Virus record (IMG/VR): IMGVR_UViG_3300046167_000487
Coordinates: 1-40,334 of that record
Length of the DNA stretch: 40,334 bases
Source of the DNA: a virus
Reading direction: 5' to 3' (one strand)
Positions 3,184 through 40,322 of this stretch are shown here, piece after piece (position 1 is the first letter of the stretch; the number at the start of each line of letters is the position of its first letter). Under the pieces are notes generated by a model, which was not told the DNA's origin, made no database searches, and was given only the letters and a program-made list of their open reading frames with translations. Both the position numbers and the translations under genes were made by a program.

Positions 3184-3214
3184 GGGAATATACAGCATTC
3201 CCCGAAGGCGTCAA
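3184..3214 (-). promoter_or_regulatory. Leftward sigma70-type early promoter with overlapping operator
   Basis: On the minus strand TTGACG (3209-3214) is followed after 16 bases by TATATT (3187-3192), each five of six matches to the sigma70 consensus. An inverted repeat GGGAAT/ATTCCC (3184-3189 and 3197-3202) overlaps the -10 and could be an operator. The AT-rich tract immediately upstream could act as an UP element. The promoter points at the early gene cluster starting at 2871. This is pattern recognition only. Confidence 0.6.
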
Positions 3215-3266: not shown

Positions 3267-3409
3267 ACCGCATACTGGCAGCGATACAGATACAATTCAT
3301 AAGGGTTTATTCGGGGCCATTTGTTACCCCGACTTCCGCAAACCCCTTTGTACGTTAGTGTATTTTACGTTTGGGACTGGATGGTGGGCATAGTAGTGGT
3401 CATAGTAGT

Positions 3410-3590
3410 GGGCTAGATGGTGGGCTAGATGGTGGGCTGGATGGTGGGCTGGATGGTGGGCTGGATGGTGGGCTAGATGGTGGGCTGGATGGTGGGCTGG
3501 ATGGTGGGCTGGATGGTGGGCTAGATGGTGGGCTGGACTGGTGGGCTGGATGGTGGGCTGGATGGTGGGCTGGATGGTGGGCTGGATGGT
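3410..3590 (+). repeat. 12-bp G-rich tandem array, 15 units (GGGCTGGATGGT)
   Basis: Fifteen consecutive copies of GGGCTRGATGGT run from 3410 to 3590. All are 12 bp except unit 11 (GGGCTGGACTGGT, 13 bp). Units 1, 2, 6 and 10 have A instead of G at position 6, so part of the array has a 48-bp super-period, pointing to expansion in blocks of four. Related sequence precedes it (3374-3409), and one isolated unit follows near 3666. All G runs are on the plus strand. The array lies between divergent promoters and is not a gene. Confidence 0.95.
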
Positions 3591-3604
3591 GCTACATGAT
3601 ACAG

Positions 3605-4129: not shown

Positions 4130-4169
4130 GACAAGAGGTCGATAATAACCCATTATTTGTTATATTATA
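4130..4169 (+). promoter_or_regulatory. 39-bp promoter element, copy 1, driving the structural operon
   Basis: The element starts GACAAGAGGTC (4130-4140), has TAACCCA in the middle and ends TTTGTTATATTATA, containing an extended -10 (TG-T-TATATT, -10 at 4161-4166). Two more copies with the same spacing lie at 36324-36362 and 38056-38094 on the minus strand. There is no -35 hexamer 16-18 bases upstream of the -10, so activation by a bound factor is likely. The first gene downstream starts at 4460, after a leader of about 290 bases. Confidence 0.75.
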
Positions 4170-4459
4170 GAGAGAGACACTTTATAGTACTATAAGGCAA
4201 ACCTTAAAGGCACTCCACTACGGCACATACTAAAGCTACTCACTAAAGCTTATTACTTTAGCTGTTGTCTGTACCTTAAAGCAGGGCCTTATAGTACTGA
4301 ACGTCTTCAAACAACAATGGAAGCCTCTAGCTGGATCGGTTCCTTAGCCCTACGGTTCATGCTTCCTACATTCTTACTTTAATTAGTCGTCGTCTGTACA
4401 ATACTGTACCATAAAGTAGCCGACTGATGCCTTAGAGCTGAACCACTGGAGGTCGTTGG
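4170..4459 (+). other. Long untranslated leader of the structural operon
   Basis: Between the promoter and the first structural gene there is a 14-bp perfect palindrome TTATAGTACTATAA (4182-4195), just after the expected start site. A hairpin CTAAAG/CTTTAG has a 7-base loop (4243-4248, 4256-4261). TACTATAAGG occurs at 4188-4197 and, inverted, at 4287-4296; the same 10-mer also follows promoter copy 3 (38050-38059, minus strand). A 21-codon frame begins at the ATG near 4318 but has no ribosome site, so I do not call it. The leader may be regulatory. Confidence 0.5.
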
Positions 4460-4825: not shown

Positions 4826-5513
4826 AGGATCTGTACCCGCCACAAAGAAAGAAGCCATGAAGAAGCTGATTGGTGGTCTTGAGAGCAATGGCGACTACAA
4901 CATAATGGTTGGTGGTAAGAAGAAGCCATTAACCTCTATGACCATCGGTGAGGTCTTGGATATGCAATCCAAGATGGATGGAGACACAGCAGCTGGTAAG
5001 TACCAGATCAAAGAGTCCACCCTACGCTCCCTAGTGTACAAACCCGGCGAGAACGCTGGAGAGTACAGCGACAAGGAACGCAACCCCTCTGACTTCAGCC
5101 CCGATATGTTATTCGACGAGGCTGCTCAAGAGTGGGCTGCTGATGCTATCCTTGATCGTAGAGGATGGAAGGACTTCGAGGCAGGAAAGATTACAGACAA
5201 GCAGATGGCTACCAATCTAGCAAAGGAGTGGGCCTCACTGCCTGATCCTGCTAAGGGCGCTAATGTATCCCACTACGGTGGTGATGGTAAGCACGACAAC
5301 GCAACACGCGCCTCAGCTGATGACGTATTCAAGGTACTTAACGTAGTAGAAACCCAAGGAGGAATGAATGGCAGAAGTCAACCTATCGCTCCTCCCATGG
5401 CAGGAGAAGGTGCACAACGACCCAGCACGATTCAAGGTAATAGCAGCGGGGCGCCGATGCGGCAAGACCCACTACGCGGCGGTCACCCTCATCCTAGCAG
5501 CCTTAGACGGTAA
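4818..5513 (+). CDS. Endolysin-type peptidoglycan hydrolase (lysozyme-like)
   Basis: I start at the ATG at 4818, which overlaps the terminase stop, giving 231 residues; a longer frame to 4662 runs inside the terminase gene. The N-terminal domain has GLESNGDYN (Glu22, candidate catalytic acid), LTSMTIGEVL and AAGKYQI (58-64), then a late SHYGGDG motif. This pattern is typical of lysozyme-like muramidases of marine phages that cut the glycan backbone of the cell wall. The last ~49 residues lie out of frame over the terminase gene and look like chance translation, so the natural end may be near 5365. No signal peptide, so export would need a holin. Confidence 0.7.
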   Translation: MSKGSVPATKKEAMKKLIGGLESNGDYNIMVGGKKKPLTSMTIGEVLDMQSKMDGDTAAGKYQIKESTLRSLVYKPGENAGEYSDKERNPSDFSPDMLFDEAAQEWAADAILDRRGWKDFEAGKITDKQMATNLAKEWASLPDPAKGANVSHYGGDGKHDNATRASADDVFKVLNVVETQGGMNGRSQPIAPPMAGEGAQRPSTIQGNSSGAPMRQDPLRGGHPHPSSLRR

Positions 5514-6621
5514 CCCCGGTGGTGTAATGTACGTAGGCCCAACCATGGGTCTTGCACGTGACCTCATGTGGGACAAGCTGTTTGAGCTGGCCGGAGAGAT
5601 CATAGTATCCTCCAATGTGAATAACCTTGAGATAGTGCTTGCTGGTGGAGGGAAGATTGCCCTCAAAGGCTCGGACAGACCCGACACTTTACGAGGCTAC
5701 AGCCTCAAGCACTTAGTACTCGATGAGTTCGCGTTTCACAAAGATGGAGTCTTCGATACGATCCTCCGGCCAGCTCTTGCAGACCGTAAGGGATCTGCTA
5801 TATTCATTAGTACCCCCGAGGGTCGCAACCAGTTTTACGACGTTTACATGAACGGCGAAACGGGAAAGACAGGATGGGCCAGCTGGCACTTAACGTCCTT
5901 CGATAACCCACTCCTTGACCCCGAGGAAATACAGAATGCCAAAGAGACAATGCCCGGCTGGATGTTCCGACAGGAATTCCAAGCGTCCTTCGACGCTAAA
6001 GGTTCGGAGTTCTTCGATCCCGAAGCGTTCATCTACTACGACAAGAAGCCCGACATCCCCGGTGATTACTACATCGCCGTCGACTTGGCAGGCTTTGAGT
6101 CGGAGCGGGGTAACAAAACAAAGCGCAGGGACAACTCTGCAATGGCTGTGGTGTTCGTTACAGACGAAGGCACATGGCACGTTGAGGATGTACAGTACGG
6201 TCGTTGGACTCTAGACGAGACAGCTGAGAACATCTTCAAGGCAGTAGAGAAGTACAAGCCCATGGCAGTAGGGATCGAGAAAGGGATTGGACAGCAAGCC
6301 GTCATGAACCCTTTGAACGATCTCATGCGTCGTACCCATCGAGTGTTCAGGATCGAACTACTCACTCACGGTAATCAGCGCAAACAGGATAGGATCCTTT
6401 GGGCGCTGCAAGGCCGATTCGAGCATGGTAAGATTAAACTTAAGAAAGCAGATTGGAACCTTGCCTTGGTGGACGAGGCGTCGGCTTTTCCTAGCCAGCT
6501 GGTACATGATGATCTACTTGATGCCTTGGCTTATATCGACCAGATGGCAATCGTACCCTACGGCAATGCTGATGATTACGAAGATGACTATGAATACTTA
6601 GATGAGGTCGCAGGATACTAA
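5368..6621 (+). CDS. terL: Terminase large subunit (packaging ATPase-nuclease)
   Basis: A 417-residue motor protein that pumps phage DNA into the prohead and cuts the concatemer. The ATPase domain has Walker A AGRRCGKT (27-34), Walker B HLVLDE (115-120) and the coupling motif FISTPEG (146-152). The RNase H-like nuclease domain has its acidic residues in IAVDLAG (Asp239), VGIEK (Glu304) and HDDLLDALAY (Asp381-385). Length and motif order are normal, though it is shorter than T7 gp19 (~586). An AGGAGG site sits five bases before the ATG. It overlaps the glutaredoxin start by one base. Confidence 0.95.
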   Translation: MAEVNLSLLPWQEKVHNDPARFKVIAAGRRCGKTHYAAVTLILAALDGNPGGVMYVGPTMGLARDLMWDKLFELAGEIIVSSNVNNLEIVLAGGGKIALKGSDRPDTLRGYSLKHLVLDEFAFHKDGVFDTILRPALADRKGSAIFISTPEGRNQFYDVYMNGETGKTGWASWHLTSFDNPLLDPEEIQNAKETMPGWMFRQEFQASFDAKGSEFFDPEAFIYYDKKPDIPGDYYIAVDLAGFESERGNKTKRRDNSAMAVVFVTDEGTWHVEDVQYGRWTLDETAENIFKAVEKYKPMAVGIEKGIGQQAVMNPLNDLMRRTHRVFRIELLTHGNQRKQDRILWALQGRFEHGKIKLKKADWNLALVDEASAFPSQLVHDDLLDALAYIDQMAIVPYGNADDYEDDYEYLDEVAGY

Positions 6622-28906: not shown

Positions 28907-29093
28907 TAGCCACCCTCCCCAAGTCAGTGTGATGACGCACCCTGAAGTACTCTTCAGCACGTTCAGTGTAGTAGTCCCGCATCCTCACCTCCAGCTCGTC
29001 CCATGCCTTGTTGGTTTGGATACGGATGGTAGTGCCCTGCGCTTCGAACCACTGGGCATACCCGTCTTCGTACTTCTCTTCTTTAGTTCTCAC
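28893..29093 (-). CDS. Hypothetical 66-aa charged protein
   Basis: The GTG start overlaps the stop of the HNH gene (GTGTGA), and the 3' end overlaps the metzincin start. The product is highly charged and aromatic (RTKEEKYEDGYAQWFEAQG, MRDYYTERAEEYFRV), helical and soluble. No family recognised. Coupling on both sides is the main support. Confidence 0.5.
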   Translation of the reverse strand: MRTKEEKYEDGYAQWFEAQGTTIRIQTNKAWDELEVRMRDYYTERAEEYFRVRHHTDLGRVASEPN

Positions 29094-29467
29094 ACAATCC
29101 TCCCGTGATTCACATGGAATCCATATTGATTCTCTCCAGACTTACGAGCACACACTGCCTCGAACCAGTCAGTAGATATGCCTAGATGGATGCTCTTACC
29201 TTTGACGTTGATCCTAGACAGCCACTTACCTGACTGCTTCTGGAAGGTTACTCCCATAAGACCAGATGTATTAGTGGCGTACTTCTTGGAGTTCCTACTA
29301 TTCTCCAGCCTGTCCACAAGCCTCAGGTTCTCAAGGCTGTTGTCTTGTATGTTGCCGTTGATATGATCTATCTGCATACCCGAAGGGATAGGCCCGAAGG
29401 CCTTCTCCCAGATACGCCGATGGTCATACTCTCTGACTCCAGCAACAGTTGTTGTTGAGTATCTCAT
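29090..29467 (-). CDS. Free-standing HNH homing endonuclease with AP2-like domain
   Basis: A 125-residue protein with HNH core IDHINGN...NSLENLRLV (residues 33-51; Asp34-His35 and Asn48 positions normal), followed by an AP2-type DNA-binding module at ~68-110 (SGLMGVTFQKQSGKWLSRI, HLGISTDWFEAV). Such genes are mobile selfish elements that cut a specific target and spread by repair. It sits directly downstream of, and overlaps by four bases, the ribonucleotide reductase gene, a common homing site in phages. It appears intact. Confidence 0.9.
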   Translation of the reverse strand: MRYSTTTVAGVREYDHRRIWEKAFGPIPSGMQIDHINGNIQDNSLENLRLVDRLENSRNSKKYATNTSGLMGVTFQKQSGKWLSRINVKGKSIHLGISTDWFEAVCARKSGENQYGFHVNHGRIV

Positions 29468-31361
29468 TCAGCTGACCCCACTATTTCACATACGCCGCCA
29501 GTACAGGCAAGCTCTTGACTACTTGTTGTTGTATCCTCTAACTCATAGCTAGGGAATATAGACCAGTCTACCTCTGGGAACTCCTCGACTGCGAGTTCGT
29601 AAGCATGACTATCTATCTGCTGATACGGAGCCTGCTGGTATGTGCCATTGTCGTACGGCAGCATACTCACACCACTCATAATATCCCAGTTGTCCCAAAC
29701 CCAAGCCATCATAGCGAAGAAGTTATCGTCGTTATAATAGACCGTGATGCTGGGCTTGTGCTCACACCACGCCTCTTGGTAGATCTTCCATAGTCGGAGT
29801 TGCTCCAACGCATCCTGCTCGTCCCTCGTCACCGCTGTATCTGGTGTCTTGATAGGGAAGCTGAAGATGGTGGTGGTGTCCGGCTTCATGACACATGGCT
29901 CATTAGGTACGCCTTGGTCACGCATGAAAGCAGTCATCGGATCTTTGTTATCCTGTCGCACTGTACGTGTGTAGTACCTAGAGTATGCAGGGTGAATGCC
30001 CGAGCTGCACAAGGCTAGCTGGCTCACCGTACCACTTGGCTTGACACACGTTATAGCTGCTGACACAGGGATCTTCAGCTGCTTGGCCCACTTCTTGTTC
30101 ACTGTGATAGCGTGTTCCCGCATGGTGGTTAGCCATTCGGTTAGCTTCTCGTCGCCTTCACTACCGTTCAGCACAGGGTGATCCATGATGCCAGTAAGGC
30201 TCACACCCAGCAGCCTCTCCTCCTCACAGTTGTCCTTCCATACCTTACGCAGGTAGCGGAAGTCCGTGAGTGTGGACTGCAACGTACCAAAGATAGTAGC
30301 AGCGTCCACCTTATGGAGCAGGTCAGCTAAGCTGTCGTCACTTCGCACGATAACCTCGGATAGATTACAGAACTCAGACGGTCGAAGGATGATCTCGGAG
30401 CAGGGGTTGCATCCCCACTTGTGTCCGGTCTCTCTCCTGCCGTGGGAGTCGATGATCTTATCCGCAGCTTCACGGTTGAAGAACCCACGCTCACCACTGT
30501 AGCTTTCATACAGGGCTTTGGACTGGTTCATGTAGAAGTGGAAGTCGGGCTTCTTCTCGTAGCATGCTGAGTTGTTAGCCAGCGCACGCTGTCCCGTCTG
30601 TGTTCCACCAAGCACCTGACTTAGCTGTAGCCATGCGATCCGATGTGGGTGAACTCAGGGAGATGAGGGCTGAACGCCTAACCCCACCGACCACCACAAT
30701 GGCAGCGACCTTACAGATGAGATCGTGTGCCTCAAGGTCTGTCAGCTTACGACCAGCAGCCTTACGGAACAGAGCTACCGTGAAGTTGAACAGATCGACT
30801 AGCGGAGCCGGGCCTGACGCACGACCACCAAAGGTCTTGAGCTTAGCACCGGCAGGTCGTATCTTACTCACGTCCCACGATGGTACTTCACCAGCCCATA
30901 GCATAGCGAGTAGCTGCTTGAATGCCTTAGCCCACCCCACCTTGGAGTCAGCTACTACAATCACTGAGTCTGTATCATGGAACTCCTCAGCTACGACAGG
31001 TAGCTTAGCAACCTCATCACGCTCACAGCTAAAGCCCTACACCTGTCCCACATAGTAGGATGTACATGCACTCATCGAAGGCCCGAGGGTGATCGACGCT
31101 GAGGTAGGCACAGTTGTATCCAGCTACGTGGTCACGATCCAGCGCAGGGCCAGCAGTCATGAGAGCGCGCATGCTAGGCACAACGTCCAAGTCCACGATC
31201 ATCTTACGTAGGGTGTTGGCTTGCATGCTACTGAGTACACCCTTGTCTTTCCAGTAGTTGGTATAACGAGAGCATGTCTCGTCCCATGTCTCCCGACGTC
31301 CAGCGTACTCGATCCATCTGGCGTATCGGGACATGGCTATAAAGTTCTGGTAATCATTCAT
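29464..31361 (-). CDS. nrdJ: Adenosylcobalamin-dependent ribonucleotide reductase, class II (two frameshifts)
   Basis: It makes deoxynucleotides from ribonucleotides using coenzyme B12. Three consecutive frames join if one base is removed near 31030 (GTGVG then FSCERDEVAKLP) and one near 30600 (SGAWW then TQTGQRALANNSA), giving 632 codons. Family motifs: GTGVG, DSKVGW, LKTFGGRASGP, IVVVGGVRRSALISLS, active-site loop GCNPCSEI (Cys about 320), PSGTVSQL and C-terminal redox pair ELACTGGVCEI (Cys619, Cys624). This is the monomeric phage type. The two indels are most likely sequencing errors, since both halves are perfectly conserved around them. Confidence 0.92.
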
Positions 31362-34140: not shown

Positions 34141-34571
34141 TAGAGTGCGTCCAGATCGTTGTCGTAGTCGAAGCTATCTTCTGAGGGTTGACCCAGCTCA
34201 GTGACCAGCATCTTCTGTACGAACGCGGACGTACCACGCTTACCCTTGAACTCCCAGTCGAACGTCTTGAGTACAGCCTCAACCTTAGAACCCTGTGTTA
34301 CTAGGTCGGGGTCGAGTGCTAAACCTTGATCGTCCACTACAGTAGGGAACTTGCTGTTATCAATAGGGAACTTAGAGGTGCAGGTGATGAACTGTCCACG
34401 ACCGTAGTCATCCTCTTTGAACTTCACGTTCATGCCCAAGCTCTCAAGCTTATCTACTGCTGCGCTGCTGAGGTTAGCCAGTTGTACACTGTACTTACCG
34501 GACATCTCCTCGACGCGAGTCAAGTTAGGGAATGCAATGGTAGCTTTAACTTTAACTAGGTTGGTATCCAT
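34140..34571 (-). CDS. Single-stranded DNA-binding protein (gp2.5-like)
   Basis: A 143-residue protein with a beta-rich body (VKVKATIAFPNLTRVEEMSGKYSVQLANL, FKGKRGTSAFVQKMLVTEL) and a very acidic C-terminal tail (DSFDYDNDLDAL), the hallmark of T7 gp2.5-type SSBs, whose tail contacts polymerase and helicase. Position between DNA polymerase and exonuclease supports the call. AAGGATACC lies before the ATG. Confidence 0.85.
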   Translation of the reverse strand: MDTNLVKVKATIAFPNLTRVEEMSGKYSVQLANLSSAAVDKLESLGMNVKFKEDDYGRGQFITCTSKFPIDNSKFPTVVDDQGLALDPDLVTQGSKVEAVLKTFDWEFKGKRGTSAFVQKMLVTELGQPSEDSFDYDNDLDAL

Positions 34572-34586
34572 AATGGTATCCTTTGA

Positions 34587-36252
34587 TTAGTGAGTGTCGG
34601 CCCATGATGAGCCTATCTTTACATCGCCCTCGGTAGGGACAGCGTAGACCTAAGTCAACACCAGCCTGCCGTATGGCATCACGGAAGATAACGCCGACCC
34701 GATCAGCGTATGCATCCGGTACTTCTACTTGGAACTCATCGTGCACTTGAGCCACTAGCTTATACGGGTAGCTGTTCTCATCCAGCCTACCTACTGCTAT
34801 GACTAAAGCTTTCTTCATTACTATCGCCCCTGCTGATTGGAGGAGCGTGTTAAGAGCAGCGTGTTCAGAGCGTACGTGTACTCGTCGTCCGTCCAGCCCT
34901 TTGATGTGCCCTCTTCCAGCAGCCACGCCAACGCGGTCGAGTAATCTTCGAAGCGCTGGAAGGGACTGTAGAAACTTCCTCTTAAGAGTAGCTCCTTGCT
35001 TTGCTCCTCCGCCAACAATCTCACCGATCTTCGCGTCACCAGCACCATAGAGAAAGCCGTATATAAACGTCTTAGCATTGTCTCTCGTCGGCAAACCTGC
35101 CGCCTCCTGATTGTATGTGTGAATGTCACCATCCAGTATTAGATTAGTGTACTCCTTGTCGTGCATGTAGTGAGCTAACATCCTGAGTTCTAGTCCAGAG
35201 GCATCGACCCCGACGAGCTTGGTGCCCTCGTCAGTGATGAACAACTCTCGGTACTCAGGGGCGGATGGTATCTGTGCAAGGTTGGGTTTGCTGTGGGACA
35301 TACGGCCGGTGATTGCACCAATGGTGTTGACTCTACCATGGATGCGTCCATCTTCTCCGCAAGCGTCGACCCAGCTGCGTACCATACCAATGCGCTTACT
35401 AATAATAAGGTACTCGAGTACAGCTTTAGCTTCGTCGAGGTGGCTGTTCTCACCCAGAGTCTTCTCATCAATCTTAGGCTTTCCCGTAGGAGTGAGTTCA
35501 GTCCATACAGCACCGATCGTTTCGAGCCGCTCCGCAACCTGCTGCCTTGAGCCGGGGTTGAAGACTGTAACCTTGTCCTTGAGTTGCTTACCTGTCTTGG
35601 CGCTCCATCGTTCCTCAATGATGGGCGGGAAGATCTGTTGTAGTTCATCTTCAATCTCCTGCATTCTCTGTTCATGGTTATTATATAGAGTACAAGCAGA
35701 TGCAAAGTCGAACTTGAATCCGTTGTCTTCCTGTATGGTAGTGACCCTGCGTACCTCAGCTTCGAGGTCATAGCTTGCATCACTAAAGCCTAGCTTCTCC
35801 TTCTTCTTAAGTAGTCCTTGGTACACGTCCCAGTTCGCATGGCAGTCAGCGATACAGTACTGGGTCATCCGTTCCCTGACCATGGGTACATCTCCGAGGT
35901 CGAAGTCGGAGGCGTCGAAGTCTTCCTTGAGGGACTTTCCTGCTGCTTGAGCAAGCGCCCGTAGCGAATGACCGCCATCCCGAGCAGGCTCCAACAACCT
36001 AGAGAGAACAAGAGTATCAACAACATCCCTATTCCACTCAAAGCCCCACACCTTCTTGAGTATCGGAAGGTCGAAGGCTATTAGGTTGTGTCCCATTACG
36101 CAGTCCACGCCACTGAGTGCGCGGTGTAGTTCGCCCACTGAGTTGCACACAGTAGTCATCCCACTGCTGTAGCGTACCACTGCCATCCAGATGTGATCCC
36201 ATGCTAGGTTTGTTTCGATGTCGAGTGTTACTATTCGCTCTTGAGTGTACAT
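34587..36252 (-). CDS. T7-type family A DNA polymerase, ~554 aa (C-terminal frameshift)
   Basis: Proofreading domain: DIET (11-14), HNLIAFDLP (Asn56, Asp61) and YCIADCHAN (Asp136). Polymerase domain: motif A VGVDASGLELR (Asp350), motif B RDNAKTFIYGFLYG (390-403) and motif C QVHDEFQVE (His504, Asp505). As printed, the frame runs to 34552 with an odd tail; removing one base of the CCC near 34638 gives PTEGDVKIGSSWADTH and a stop at 34587, the conserved T7-family C-terminus. AGGAGA lies before the ATG at 36252. It is driven by promoter copy 2. Confidence 0.95.
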
Positions 36253-36323: not shown

Positions 36324-36362
36324 ATAATATAACAAATAGTGGGTTAGTGTTGACCTCTTGTC
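36324..36362 (-). promoter_or_regulatory. 39-bp promoter element, copy 2, upstream of DNA polymerase
   Basis: On the minus strand it begins GACAAGAGGTC (36362-36352), continues with CTAACCCA and ends TTTGTTATATTAT, the same order and spacing as the other two copies. The first bases overlap the TGA stop of the primase-helicase gene (CTTTGACAAG), so the element is packed into a 108-base gap. The next real start is the DNA polymerase at 36252, about 65 bases after the expected transcription start. Confidence 0.75.
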
Positions 36363-38004
36363 AAAGCGCCTCCTCCGCTAGGTCTTCAGGGGTGAACTCA
36401 CTCAGTCGTCCAGTGTGGTTGTCGTACAGTAGATGTCCGGCTGGCCCAGTGATACCACTAAACCTGTTCTTGAGTACACGCATGTGAGTTGTGTTCCGTT
36501 CAATTGGATCCTCTGCTTGCCCGTTCCGCTCAAGACCGATAACAAAGTCAGACAGCTGAGCAATAGAAGCACTGCCCCTAAGTTGAGCCACTGACGTAGC
36601 CGCTCCTTCTTCATGGCCCTTACCCTCCGGTCGTTTCAAGTGGGACACTGCGAACAACACAATGCCTGTGTCCTGCGTCAAGGTGCGTAGCTTAGTCATG
36701 ATCTCGTCGAGTGCTTTACGCTCGTCGCCATGCTGCCCACCCGATACAAGTATACTAATGTGATCTAAGATTATAACCTTGCAGTCCATAGCCTTAGCCA
36801 TGAAGCGAACACGTGCTACCACTGCGTCAACAGTAGCGCCAGTGTCAAAGCTAGCATCCATAATCATTAGCTGCTCGTCGCCGAACACCCTGTTGAATGA
36901 CTCCTTGTACTCCTCTGAGCCACGCTTGACTGCACTGGTAGGTAGGTGCACGGGTGTGGATAGATCAACGCCCATGAATCCCTCAGCCGTACGCTCGACG
37001 CTCTCCTCCATGAAGAGACACCCGATGCGGTTGGGCGTAGTGTTCTTCACGTGCATGACCAGCTCCCGTAAGATACTGGACTTGCCTAGACCTGAGCCAG
37101 CTGTAACAGTGATGAGTTCAGTAGGTCGGAAGCCGTAGGTGAGGTTGTTGAGTGCTTCCCACGGGTAGTCACCCAGCTTGTCGGGACGCTCAGCATTCAA
37201 GCGATCCCATAGCTCGTCCTTAGAGAGGATACCCTTGGGTGTGTACTGAGAAGCGCTCCAGTACAGATCACTAAACGCCTTCTTCTCACCCGCCTTCAGG
37301 TAATCACATGCATCCTTCCCGATAGCAGGGTCGAGCCGCATGATGCGTAGCTTACCAGCGAATACCTCAGCTGCCTTCTCAACAGCAGCAAGGCCAGCCT
37401 CATCGGCATCAAAGCACACTACAATCTCAGTGAATCCATCGAGGAAGTTGTATGCATTCTTGAAGTCCTTAGCTGCTGCGGCTGCGCCACCCTTAAGGGA
37501 TACGACTGCTACCTTATCGTCGAACAAAGCGCTAGCTGCGAGTGCATCCAGCTCACCCTCTACCACGACCACTCGGTTCTGCTTGTGGTTGCCGTACCTC
37601 TGTTGACCGAACAAGCCACCCGACTTGATGTCCCCGACTGAACGGAATGCTTTAGTCTTGACGTGGCGTACCTTAAAGCCCACCGGATCGGTCGACTCAG
37701 CAGAAAAGTAAGGGTAATAGTGGTGCTCCCCTACGACTGCGACCTTGTACTTAGACGCAGTAGCTGAAGTGATTGACCGATCCGGTAGGGCTACTGGCTT
37801 AGCCTGTTGCCATGCTTGAGTGAGGCGTCCAAGTTCGTGGACACTAGTGAGTGTTACTGTTTCAGTTGGTGCCATTGTGGAATCTCCATGCGTATAGGCT
37901 TCACAAACAAAGCAATAGCTGTGTCCGTCATCGTAGAGTACGTTACCGTCCGATGAGCCACACTTATCGCATGGCCCTTTGCTTACTACTGTACTTTCTG
38001 TCAT
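36361..38004 (-). CDS. T7 gp4-type primase-helicase, 547 aa
   Basis: N-terminal zinc-binding domain with CDKC and CFVC (Cys12, 15, 31, 34), then a TOPRIM primase core with EGELDALA (149-156) and CFDADEAG (197-204), and a DnaB/RecA-type helicase with Walker A GSGLGKSS (303-310), the Walker B-like IILDHISILV, and GSASIAQLSDFVIGLERN near the end. It unwinds DNA and makes primers at the fork. AAGGAG lies nine bases before the ATG. Promoter copy 3 lies directly upstream. Confidence 0.95.
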   Translation of the reverse strand: MTESTVVSKGPCDKCGSSDGNVLYDDGHSYCFVCEAYTHGDSTMAPTETVTLTSVHELGRLTQAWQQAKPVALPDRSITSATASKYKVAVVGEHHYYPYFSAESTDPVGFKVRHVKTKAFRSVGDIKSGGLFGQQRYGNHKQNRVVVVEGELDALAASALFDDKVAVVSLKGGAAAAAKDFKNAYNFLDGFTEIVVCFDADEAGLAAVEKAAEVFAGKLRIMRLDPAIGKDACDYLKAGEKKAFSDLYWSASQYTPKGILSKDELWDRLNAERPDKLGDYPWEALNNLTYGFRPTELITVTAGSGLGKSSILRELVMHVKNTTPNRIGCLFMEESVERTAEGFMGVDLSTPVHLPTSAVKRGSEEYKESFNRVFGDEQLMIMDASFDTGATVDAVVARVRFMAKAMDCKVIILDHISILVSGGQHGDERKALDEIMTKLRTLTQDTGIVLFAVSHLKRPEGKGHEEGAATSVAQLRGSASIAQLSDFVIGLERNGQAEDPIERNTTHMRVLKNRFSGITGPAGHLLYDNHTGRLSEFTPEDLAEEAL

Positions 38005-38055: not shown

Positions 38056-38094
38056 AGTATATAACAAAGTCTGGGTTATTACCGACCTCTTGTC
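38056..38094 (-). promoter_or_regulatory. 39-bp promoter element, copy 3, upstream of primase-helicase
   Basis: It starts GACAAGAGGTCGG (38094 leftward), then TAATAACCCA and TTTGTTATATACT. The spacing between GAGGTC, AACCCA and TTTGTTATAT is identical to copies 1 and 2. The first two bases belong to the TGA stop of the upstream gene (CGGTGACAAG), as in copy 2. It is followed by TACTATAAGG (38059-38050), also present just downstream of copy 1. The helicase start is 52 bases beyond the element. Confidence 0.75.
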
Positions 38095-39244
38095 ACCGCT
38101 TGCACGTGTTAATGAATAGTATCTTAGCTGCAATAGCCTCCTCCTCTGTGTCGAAATCCCCTATAACAATCAATCGCTTACCTCCAATCATCATCTGTGC
38201 TCGGTACTTATCGGCCATCATGCTACGTACCCGAACTGCTATACCCTCCGATGCCGTGCTATTAGCTGTGGTCTCAAGCTTCAAGCTGCTGATACGTAGG
38301 TCTGAAGTACCGCCAGTCTCAACGATGGTATTGTTAGCTGGATCAGTGCCATGGTGCAGCGCCCACACGATACGTGAGGTGTAATAGTCCTGTCCGTCTA
38401 TCTTGGTGGACAGCCTACCATCTACACGTACCTTGTAAGCCACTGAGCCAGCCTTCACGCGACCCCGTGACACTTTCCATACTAGACTACCTGTCTCGCT
38501 ATCGTAGCTGAGAAGCTCATTCAAGCGCTCCTGTGGGGGCATAGGTTTAGCGCCCGACTTGGCTGGCTTCAGCTTCAAACCCTTAGCCTCCTCCTCTATG
38601 GCACGGGTGACACCGTTGTACTCCTGCATGCCACGCCAACGCAGTCCCTTAGCTTGCTTGATAGCGTACCTCTGGTATGACTCCGCCTTGACAGCAGCAA
38701 GGAAGTTCTGAACAGACTCAGTGCCAAACCCTGCGGCTAGTAACAGACTACGTAGCTGTTTGTCCGTAGCATTCTTGCTTGTGAGTGTAGAAAAAGTGGA
38801 CATCCTAGGGTTTAGTGCGTCGATACCCTCGCGGAAGTACAGACCCACGCGGTCATCTTCCCGTGATGCATCCGCTACTGCTATGTCTGCAATCCTATCC
38901 TCTACTGTACCCACGTTCACCATTACGGTGTGACCCGACGTCTCCCCGTTCTCGTTCTCCAACTCGTTGGGTAGCTCGTGCGCGTTCGAGTTCAGCCAGT
39001 CAATGCAGTCCTGTACCTGCTCCTTGCCTCGGGTGTTGGACTTGCGGTAGTACATATGCCTCGCAGGAATGGTGGGATCTTTCATCATCCGTCGTCGCTC
39101 CTTACGATCGACAGGTGTTGCCGCCATGGATGCAGTGAATCCCCGAAGGTTGCCGATGGATGTTAGCTTGTGGTTTATGTTGTCTTGCTTCAGTTGCTGG
39201 TAGTCCAGCGCATCCCCGTCGTACCCGTTGTCTTCAAATAGCAT
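38093..39244 (-). CDS. Early protein with degenerate HNH/AP2-like C-terminus, 383 aa
   Basis: I start at the ATG at 39242-39244, overlapping the previous stop; TTG at 39250 would add two residues. Residues 1-230 match no family I know. Residues ~235-325 follow the layout of HNH endonuclease N-termini (LNELLSYDSETGSLVWKVSRG, a DGRLST / YYTSRIVWALHHG segment). Where DHINGD...NLRLVT is expected there is NNTIVETGGTSDLRISSLKLETT, so the catalytic His is absent. The end (YRAQMMIGGKRLIVIGDF, then EEAIAAK) is AP2-like. It may be a domesticated, nuclease-dead DNA-binding protein, lying at the early/middle boundary. Confidence 0.65.
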   Translation of the reverse strand: MLFEDNGYDGDALDYQQLKQDNINHKLTSIGNLRGFTASMAATPVDRKERRRMMKDPTIPARHMYYRKSNTRGKEQVQDCIDWLNSNAHELPNELENENGETSGHTVMVNVGTVEDRIADIAVADASREDDRVGLYFREGIDALNPRMSTFSTLTSKNATDKQLRSLLLAAGFGTESVQNFLAAVKAESYQRYAIKQAKGLRWRGMQEYNGVTRAIEEEAKGLKLKPAKSGAKPMPPQERLNELLSYDSETGSLVWKVSRGRVKAGSVAYKVRVDGRLSTKIDGQDYYTSRIVWALHHGTDPANNTIVETGGTSDLRISSLKLETTANSTASEGIAVRVRSMMADKYRAQMMIGGKRLIVIGDFDTEEEAIAAKILFINTCKR

Positions 39245-39515
39245 AGCCAAGTTCTCCCATTAGCTTGATGAATCCGTAGTAGTCCAGCTTCTTATCGAAG
39301 GTTTGCATAAACATATACAGCTCGTCTTCAGTAATCTTTTCTTCTCGGTAGTCCATGATGGCTTGCCATAGCTCAGCCCGTTTAGTTTGGCGATCCAGTG
39401 CAGCGCCGTACCTGTCAGTTGGTACCCGTACCACGTCACCTAATCCGGTGTGGTCGTTAGGGTTAGCACGTGCATCATCAATGGCTGTGAATAGTTCTTG
39501 GATGTAGTTCTTCAT
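39234..39515 (-). CDS. Small conserved early protein, 93 aa (right copy)
   Basis: It differs from the product of 66-347 at two residues although about 9% of the bases differ, a sign of strong purifying selection. It is acidic, with many Tyr and Lys and no membrane segment. The stop overlaps the start of the 383-residue gene, so the two are translationally coupled. Function unknown. Confidence 0.8.
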   Translation of the reverse strand: MKNYIQELFTAIDDARANPNDHTGLGDVVRVPTDRYGAALDRQTKRAELWQAIMDYREEKITEDELYMFMQTFDKKLDYYGFIKLMGELGYAI

Positions 39516-39575
39516 AGTAATCCCTCGGCTTTAAGTAGTTGAATTAGTTGGAGTTTATCTCCCAAGGATAGGTGA

Positions 39576-39785
39576 TCATATATCGTCGTAATCGGTATCA
39601 TCTACCTCTACTCCTTCCGCTAGTATCTTTTGGATTAGTCTATCAAGCTGTCTACATGCTGAGCCATACGCCCACGTCGCACCCTGTGCCACCTTGTCGT
39701 CGGGGCAGTCTGCGTTCAGCCGTCGTTGGTGCTCGAGATTAGACAACATCCCCTGCAATTCGCCTAGTATTTGTAATTGATTCAT
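39576..39785 (-). CDS. Small helical early protein, 69 aa (right copy)
   Basis: I start at the ATG at 39783-39785, which overlaps the stop of the 79-residue gene as ATGA and has GGAGG upstream; a TTG-started extension to 39803 is possible. The product is charged and helical (NQLQILGELQGMLSNLEHQRRL) with Cys in NADCPDD and GSACRQ. It is nearly identical to the left copy except at the acidic C-terminus (VEVDDTDYDDI). Function unknown. Confidence 0.7.
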   Translation of the reverse strand: MNQLQILGELQGMLSNLEHQRRLNADCPDDKVAQGATWAYGSACRQLDRLIQKILAEGVEVDDTDYDDI

Positions 39786-40021
39786 CGTCCCATGTCCCTC
39801 CAAGCTTCGTATATTTCATCGGCGCCGTTGTCATTGCGGTACATATCAATGGCTGCGTCGAGCAGATCATCCTGCACCATGTCCGGCACTTCGTCCACGT
39901 CGCACACGTTGTCATCAATGAAAGCTAGACACGTAGAAAAGTCTGCGTCCCCGTCATCATGTACGTCGACCCATGCTTCGTAGGTTACGCCGTCAATCGT
40001 CACTTCAGATAAGTACTTCAT
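39782..40021 (-). CDS. Acidic early protein, 79 aa (right copy, intact)
   Basis: It begins KYLSEVTIDGVTYEAWVDV, then a very acidic body (HDDGDADFSTC, DDNVCDVDEVPD, DDLLDAAIDMYRNDNGADEI). The beta-hairpin start and strong negative charge recall DNA-mimic-like small phage proteins, but this is only a compositional impression. The ATG overlaps the stop of the 66-residue gene (ATGA). The left copy is frameshifted. Confidence 0.7.
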   Translation of the reverse strand: MKYLSEVTIDGVTYEAWVDVHDDGDADFSTCLAFIDDNVCDVDEVPDMVQDDLLDAAIDMYRNDNGADEIYEAWRDMGR

Positions 40022-40218
40022 TCTTCCTCCTTGTAGATGTCAGCTATACGCTTGCAATGGCTCTCTACTAGACGATAGCCAGATGCTCTACCCTCTAGCC
40101 ATTGGGCGTGCAATTCACCCAGCTCGGTGTCATTAGCCGCTTTGGCATCCTGTACAGCGTAGCTTCCGAATAGCTCAGACACCGCCATTAGCTGCTCATA
40201 TATATCCTTATTCATCAT
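40018..40218 (-). CDS. Early protein, 66 aa (right copy, intact)
   Basis: The sequence begins MMNKDIYEQLMAVSELFGSYA and continues as a helical, charged protein (LGELHAQWLEGRASGYRLVE). The start ATG overlaps the stop of the membrane peptide, and the stop overlaps the next start. No family recognised. The left copy carries indels. Confidence 0.65.
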   Translation of the reverse strand: MMNKDIYEQLMAVSELFGSYAVQDAKAANDTELGELHAQWLEGRASGYRLVESHCKRIADIYKEEE

Positions 40219-40322
40219 AGTTCCCCTGTCAGTAGCACGGCATACACCGTGATGTAGAATAGACCCGCGTAGATGATAACACGGGCCGCGTGGTTTAACC
40301 GCTCTCTGTCTTTACCTGTCAT
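40215..40322 (-). CDS. 35-aa single-pass membrane peptide (right copy)
   Basis: The ATG at 40320-40322 has GGAGG seven bases upstream at the window edge. The product has a basic N-terminus (MTGKDRERLNHAAR) and one span (VIIYAGLFYITVYAVLL). It differs from the left copy at one residue (Val for Cys at the span start). The stop overlaps the next start (TGATG). Function unknown. Confidence 0.65.
   Translation of the reverse strand: MTGKDRERLNHAARVIIYAGLFYITVYAVLLTGEL

Follow-up and report, generated by a model that had tools for sequence, protein, structure and literature searches.

T4 MotA and other middle-promoter activators are early phage proteins that act at promoters having a −10 box, where they take the place of the −35 contact. 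The role that we propose below for a phage protein is similar in its timing and in the type of promoter, but MotA has no homing-endonuclease ancestry. The Smad MH1 domain, a non-nuclease DNA-binding domain from an animal signalling protein, is linked to homing endonucleases. Moreover, the AP2 DNA-binding domain of plant AP2/ERF proteins is thought to be derived from a homing endonuclease (PMC3794426), and the bacterial transcription factor WhiA has homing endonucleases among its relatives (PMC3781837); the step from homing endonuclease to regulator thus has precedents. HNH homing endonucleases of the I-HmuI type (1u3e; PHROG_99, Pfam HNH_3) have reported targets of up to 30 bp (PMC3943268), and the catalytic residues of I-HmuI are D74, H75 and N96 (PMC12724721).

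The phage protein described here shares the beta-hairpin, the HNH core and the extended DNA-binding region with the I-HmuI type. It differs by the loss of the D74/H75/N96 equivalents, a fixed genomic position, an extra family-specific N-terminal region and a proposed target that occurs several times per genome, at promoters. Its likeness to plant AP2/ERF proteins consists of profile and fold matches to WRI1, but the phage protein still has the HNH core attached and is carried by a bacterial virus. WhiA, in contrast, belongs to the LAGLIDADG family, has another fold and is encoded by a cellular gene. In the open-access literature, with most subscription journals outside the scope, we found no earlier report of a phage middle or late activator formed from a dead HNH/AP2 protein. 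We consider it likely, mainly from sequence comparisons, that a domesticated, nuclease-dead HNH/AP2 protein is made early and activates middle and late transcription by the host RNA polymerase in a site-specific manner.

The window, which is the whole stretch of DNA analysed, is a virus record 40,334 bases long that has a T7-like gene set, including primase/helicase, DNA polymerase, exonuclease and endonuclease VII as well as ribonucleotide reductase, terminase, portal and major head protein (Table 1). Its ends (positions 1–1278 versus 39166–40322) overlap with ~85–97% identity and many differences, as if two variants had been co-assembled, and the genome is probably ~39 kb long with joined ends. 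The first-pass annotation had placed the HNH/AP2 gene last among the early genes before element copy 3, with expression from the ordinary sigma70 early promoter if the ends join. Such a joined arrangement was found in a relative, L001, in which a single contiguous 11-kb piece spans the junction in the order late promoter, early genes, HNH/AP2 gene, primase, polymerase. The reading frame is encoded by the minus strand and runs from an ATG at 39244 to a TGA at 38095–38093, immediately ahead of copy 3 and the primase gene.

Each of the three element copies is oriented with its downstream operon, i.e. primase, polymerase and the divergent late operon, and pairs including copy 1 are 87–90% alike over 39 nt. 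The element promoters have a −10-like box, and a −35 box is not recognisable. In copy 3, the −10 region is two bases longer than in copies 1 and 2. The exact pattern ACCCANNNTTTGTTATAT found 107 stretches, which were mostly unrelated chance matches. No T7-type RNA polymerase (PF00940) was detected in the window or in three records of the family, a search in which the positive control S-CBP1 scored E 1.7e-67, and no sigma factor was found by search, so both were rejected as readers of the elements.

Table 1. Features of the HNH/AP2 locus, of its proposed target genes and of the promoter elements in the window
Feature	Position	Strand	Basis or remark
HNH/AP2 protein, 383 aa, predicted to be nuclease-dead; proposed middle/late transcription activator	38093..39244	-	translation; PHROG_99 match
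Family-specific N-terminal region, residues 1-228	38561..39244	-	conserved LRWRGM(Q/E)E stretch inside
Beta-hairpin AYKVRVDGRLSTKIDGQDYY, residues 269-288	38381..38440	-	best tracker of element box between genomes
Degenerate HNH block, residues 290-320	38285..38377	-	first His, DH pair and HNH Asn correspond to S290, V308-E309 and S320
AP2-like strands and helix, residues 334-383	38096..38245	-	model, profile and structure matches
93-aa companion gene, overlaps start of HNH/AP2 gene	39234..39515	-	
DNA primase/helicase, proposed target gene	36361..38004	-	
DNA polymerase, proposed target gene	34552..36252	-	
Terminase large subunit, within proposed late target operon	5368..6621	+	
Element copy 1, late divergent promoter upstream of the terminase and structural genes	4130..4165	+	sequence comparison
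Element copy 2, located between the genes for primase and DNA polymerase	36327..36362	-	starts within primase stop codon
Element copy 3, pre-primase promoter	38059..38094	-	starts within HNH/AP2 gene stop codon
Sigma70-like early promoter TTGACG-N16-TATATT	3187..3214	-	consensus match only

The layout of an HNH-AP2 homing endonuclease with a replaced catalytic block, which the first-pass annotation had seen in the C-terminal part, was borne out by a PHROG_99 match, by the family-wide loss of residues and by the predicted fold. Residues 193–373 matched the 'HNH endonuclease' PHROG_99 with an E value of 8.8e-27; a Pfam search with the window protein by itself gave no match, AP2 included. We aligned 20 family rows with 44 rows of ordinary HNH/AP2 proteins. 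Of the active-site residues, the first His was kept in 0/20 family rows, the Asp in 0/20 and the DH-pair His in 1/20 (a gapped row), versus 42/44, 44/44 and 44/44 of the ordinary rows, a contrast that arises partly by construction because some ordinary rows were retrieved with the IDHINGVR peptide. As an independent control, the second HNH/AP2 gene of the window (29090–29467) retains HR...DHINGN. The catalytic D, H and N required of an HNH homing endonuclease are V308, E309 and S320 in the window protein, and D and H are lost family-wide. One group of distant members has also lost the latter half of the HNH block and retains the last strands and helix. These data support the prediction that the protein is a nuclease-dead HNH/AP2 scaffold.

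Structure prediction of the C-terminal part, which had also been proposed from the first reading of the sequence, was run on residues 190–383 and yielded an I-HmuI-like fold. The AlphaFold2 model from a 64-row alignment had a mean pLDDT of 82.5, and its top match with VIA-align 2 was I-HmuI (1u3e; Z 7.0, rmsd 2.7, 83 residues), followed by I-PpoI, Smad4 MH1 (a weak match, Z 3.0) and then the AP2 protein WRI1 (last 50 residues, Z 2.6). With the profile of the model's alignment, the values were 5.6e-7 against WRI1 and 3e-6 against I-HmuI; Foldseek with the model gave no match below E 0.001 in the PDB. We take the fold as support short of proof, because a Z of 7 is moderate and the alignment contains ordinary HNH homologues. 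A full-length AlphaFold2 model from 8 rows was discarded (pLDDT 39), and the full-length profile matched only nitrophorins among the PDB sequences, at chance level.

Database searches with residues 1–228 gave no match outside the family, and distant members were recovered with a profile of this N-terminal region alone. The family comprises ~22 contigs with identities down to 25%, and in each of them the gene is located directly 5′ of the primase gene, 48–135 bases off. No relative was found in GTDB genome contigs. Among the early genes of the window, only the HNH/AP2 gene was present in all 16 loci examined. HNH genes abound in phages, frequently in truncated form (PMC12724721), and the protein could accordingly be an ordinary decaying homing endonuclease that is retained by chance, with the elements being recognised by a host factor. 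We regard this as very improbable. The gene is under purifying selection (dN/dS ~0.1–0.3 in most segments with measurable dS), the active site is dead in all members, and the position before the primase gene is fixed across ~22 divergent genomes, unlike the mobile, variable insertion sites expected of an HNH homing endonuclease. In addition, a common host factor would not account for genome-private elements.

In close relatives, the element copies of one genome vary together at the same bases, and their spacers and flanks are copy-specific. The primase and polymerase of L001 are ~99% identical to those of the window. All three copies in L001 carry the box GACAAACGCGGT..TCACCCA where the window has GACAAGAGGTC..TAACCCA; the flanks and spacer bases of each copy are largely window-like, with TTA and CTA remaining at copies 1 and 2. 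Seven of the 36 element columns (6, 7, 9–12 and 18) were changed in all three copies between the two genomes, and none of 200,000 random placements equalled seven concerted columns. Copy 3 adjoins the HNH/AP2 gene, which leaves copies 1 and 2 as the only ones at a good distance from it. In L003, two copies are altered together, including TTTGTT to TTACGT, and L002 carries a third box. Gene conversion among the copies as the source of their likeness is ruled out by the copy-specific spacer bases and flanks.

When the proteins were compared, residues 1–268 of L001 and the window were near-identical (dS 0.12–0.17), whereas segment 269–325 was replaced (dS 1.77). The window's box also occurs in L004, together with nearly the window's hairpin; the remainder of the L004 protein is more diverged, with synonymous sites near saturation. 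Across five closely related genomes, a small number, element distance correlated with the distance of segment 269–325 (rho 0.74, Mantel P 0.03). Residues 91–110 also correlated with it in these genomes (Mantel P 0.08), and no correlation was obtained with residues 1–228 or 326–383. We thus found repeated promoter elements that covary with a protein, as is expected of a phage promoter-specific activator. The link of the protein to the 39-bp elements, which the first-pass annotation had offered as a conjecture, gained support from these concerted changes matching segment 269–325. It gained support also from the private elements of distant members and from consensus-like sigma70 promoters before primase being entirely lacking only where the gene is present (see below).

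The elements might instead be read by another early protein, for example the 93-aa product, with the HNH/AP2 protein as its partner or a passenger. In nearly all members (all of the 16 loci examined except L119), the 93-aa gene neighbours the HNH/AP2 gene, and the two reading frames overlap. However, no 93-aa gene was detected in L119 despite the three elements of that genome. Furthermore, the 93-aa protein is ~95% identical between the window and L001, which have different boxes, and ~73% identical between the window and L004, which have the same box. This pattern is the opposite of that of a specificity factor and counts against the 93-aa protein as the reader. We therefore consider this explanation improbable, although the 93-aa neighbour, being almost as widespread, could be a partner or the activator itself. 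Other early genes were ruled out as the specificity factor by their identity patterns; a 141-aa early protein was 79–96% identical between genomes with unrelated elements.

Distant family members have elements of their own. In L119, the same places as in the window are occupied by a 36-base element of entirely different sequence, in three copies, L122 has two copies of another private element, and L006/L189 have two copies of yet another (a 42-kb record lies behind L006). In L277, which was retrieved after the idea had been formed, the sequence of the pre-primase gap was found once more, ahead of the terminase operon, with a score of 21.2 compared to 10.8 for the next best recurrence. A second element copy was not seen in the remaining family contigs, most of which are too short to include the late promoter. 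In related phages without the gene, no such long element was found. Several of these gene-less relatives have promoters of the kind TTGACT-N17-TAAGAT before the primase gene and at a second, divergent site. Within 260 bases of the primase gene, where random stretches give 6.6%, a consensus-like sigma70 promoter was present in none of 19 family loci versus 26 of 44 loci of gene-less relatives. After similar loci had been collapsed, the counts were 0/18 and 10/25 clusters, respectively (Fisher P 0.002), a clear sigma70 match being absent also from 15/25 gene-less clusters.

The same coevolution data would be obtained if the protein bound the elements as a repressor or timer that delays the middle and late promoters. 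The sites overlap promoters, and the active homing endonuclease I-TevI can repress transcription (PMC3943268). Nevertheless, we think that repression is rather unlikely. We infer an activator rather than a repressor because a −35 is not recognisable in the element promoters, and the many gene-less relatives with consensus-like sigma70 promoters fit a needed positive factor. Moreover, a repressor that is made early and acts on all later genes would need a further switch, and none was seen.

If the HNH/AP2 protein is the activator, it would be produced early from a sigma70-type promoter and would bind the 36–39-bp elements of its genome via the beta-hairpin/HNH-like surface and the AP2 strands. 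Host RNA polymerase would then be activated at promoters with a −10-like box and without a recognisable −35, whereby primase, DNA polymerase and the late operon would be switched on. Direct element binding, activation and contact with the host polymerase are predictions of this reading, and the polymerase contact would perhaps be made through the N-terminal region. As a wider and distinctly more tentative proposal, a T7-like lineage without an RNA polymerase gene may run its middle and late transcription by a dead homing endonuclease, with the specificity segment being swapped together with all promoter elements and resulting in a near-private promoter code for each phage. Such a code, if true, could prevent related phages in a co-infection from exploiting one another's genes. 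The protein would represent a homing endonuclease domesticated as a phage master regulator, with intact relatives beside the dead family and one of them in the same genome. The matched protein/DNA pairs would form a natural series from which recognition rules of the HNH/AP2 scaffold could be derived, and the proposal offers a testable answer to the question of gene timing in T7-like phages without an RNA polymerase gene.

Further repeats were observed near the promoters. A tandem array of ~14 copies of the 12-base unit CCATCCAGCCCA is located upstream of the early genes (3362–3598), and an inverted repeat of 28 nt, whose arms are 57 nt apart, lies just downstream of late copy 1 (4186–4298). 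In L005, L006, L181 and L010, an inverted repeat AAGCTT...CTTAAGCTT follows the element between the HNH/AP2 gene and the primase gene, and it is perhaps an attenuator in this clade. Elsewhere in the window (29464–31361), ribonucleotide reductase extends over three ORFs that match successive parts of one family, and the intact-looking HNH/AP2 gene comes after this split gene. Frameshifts or an insertion are possible causes of the split.
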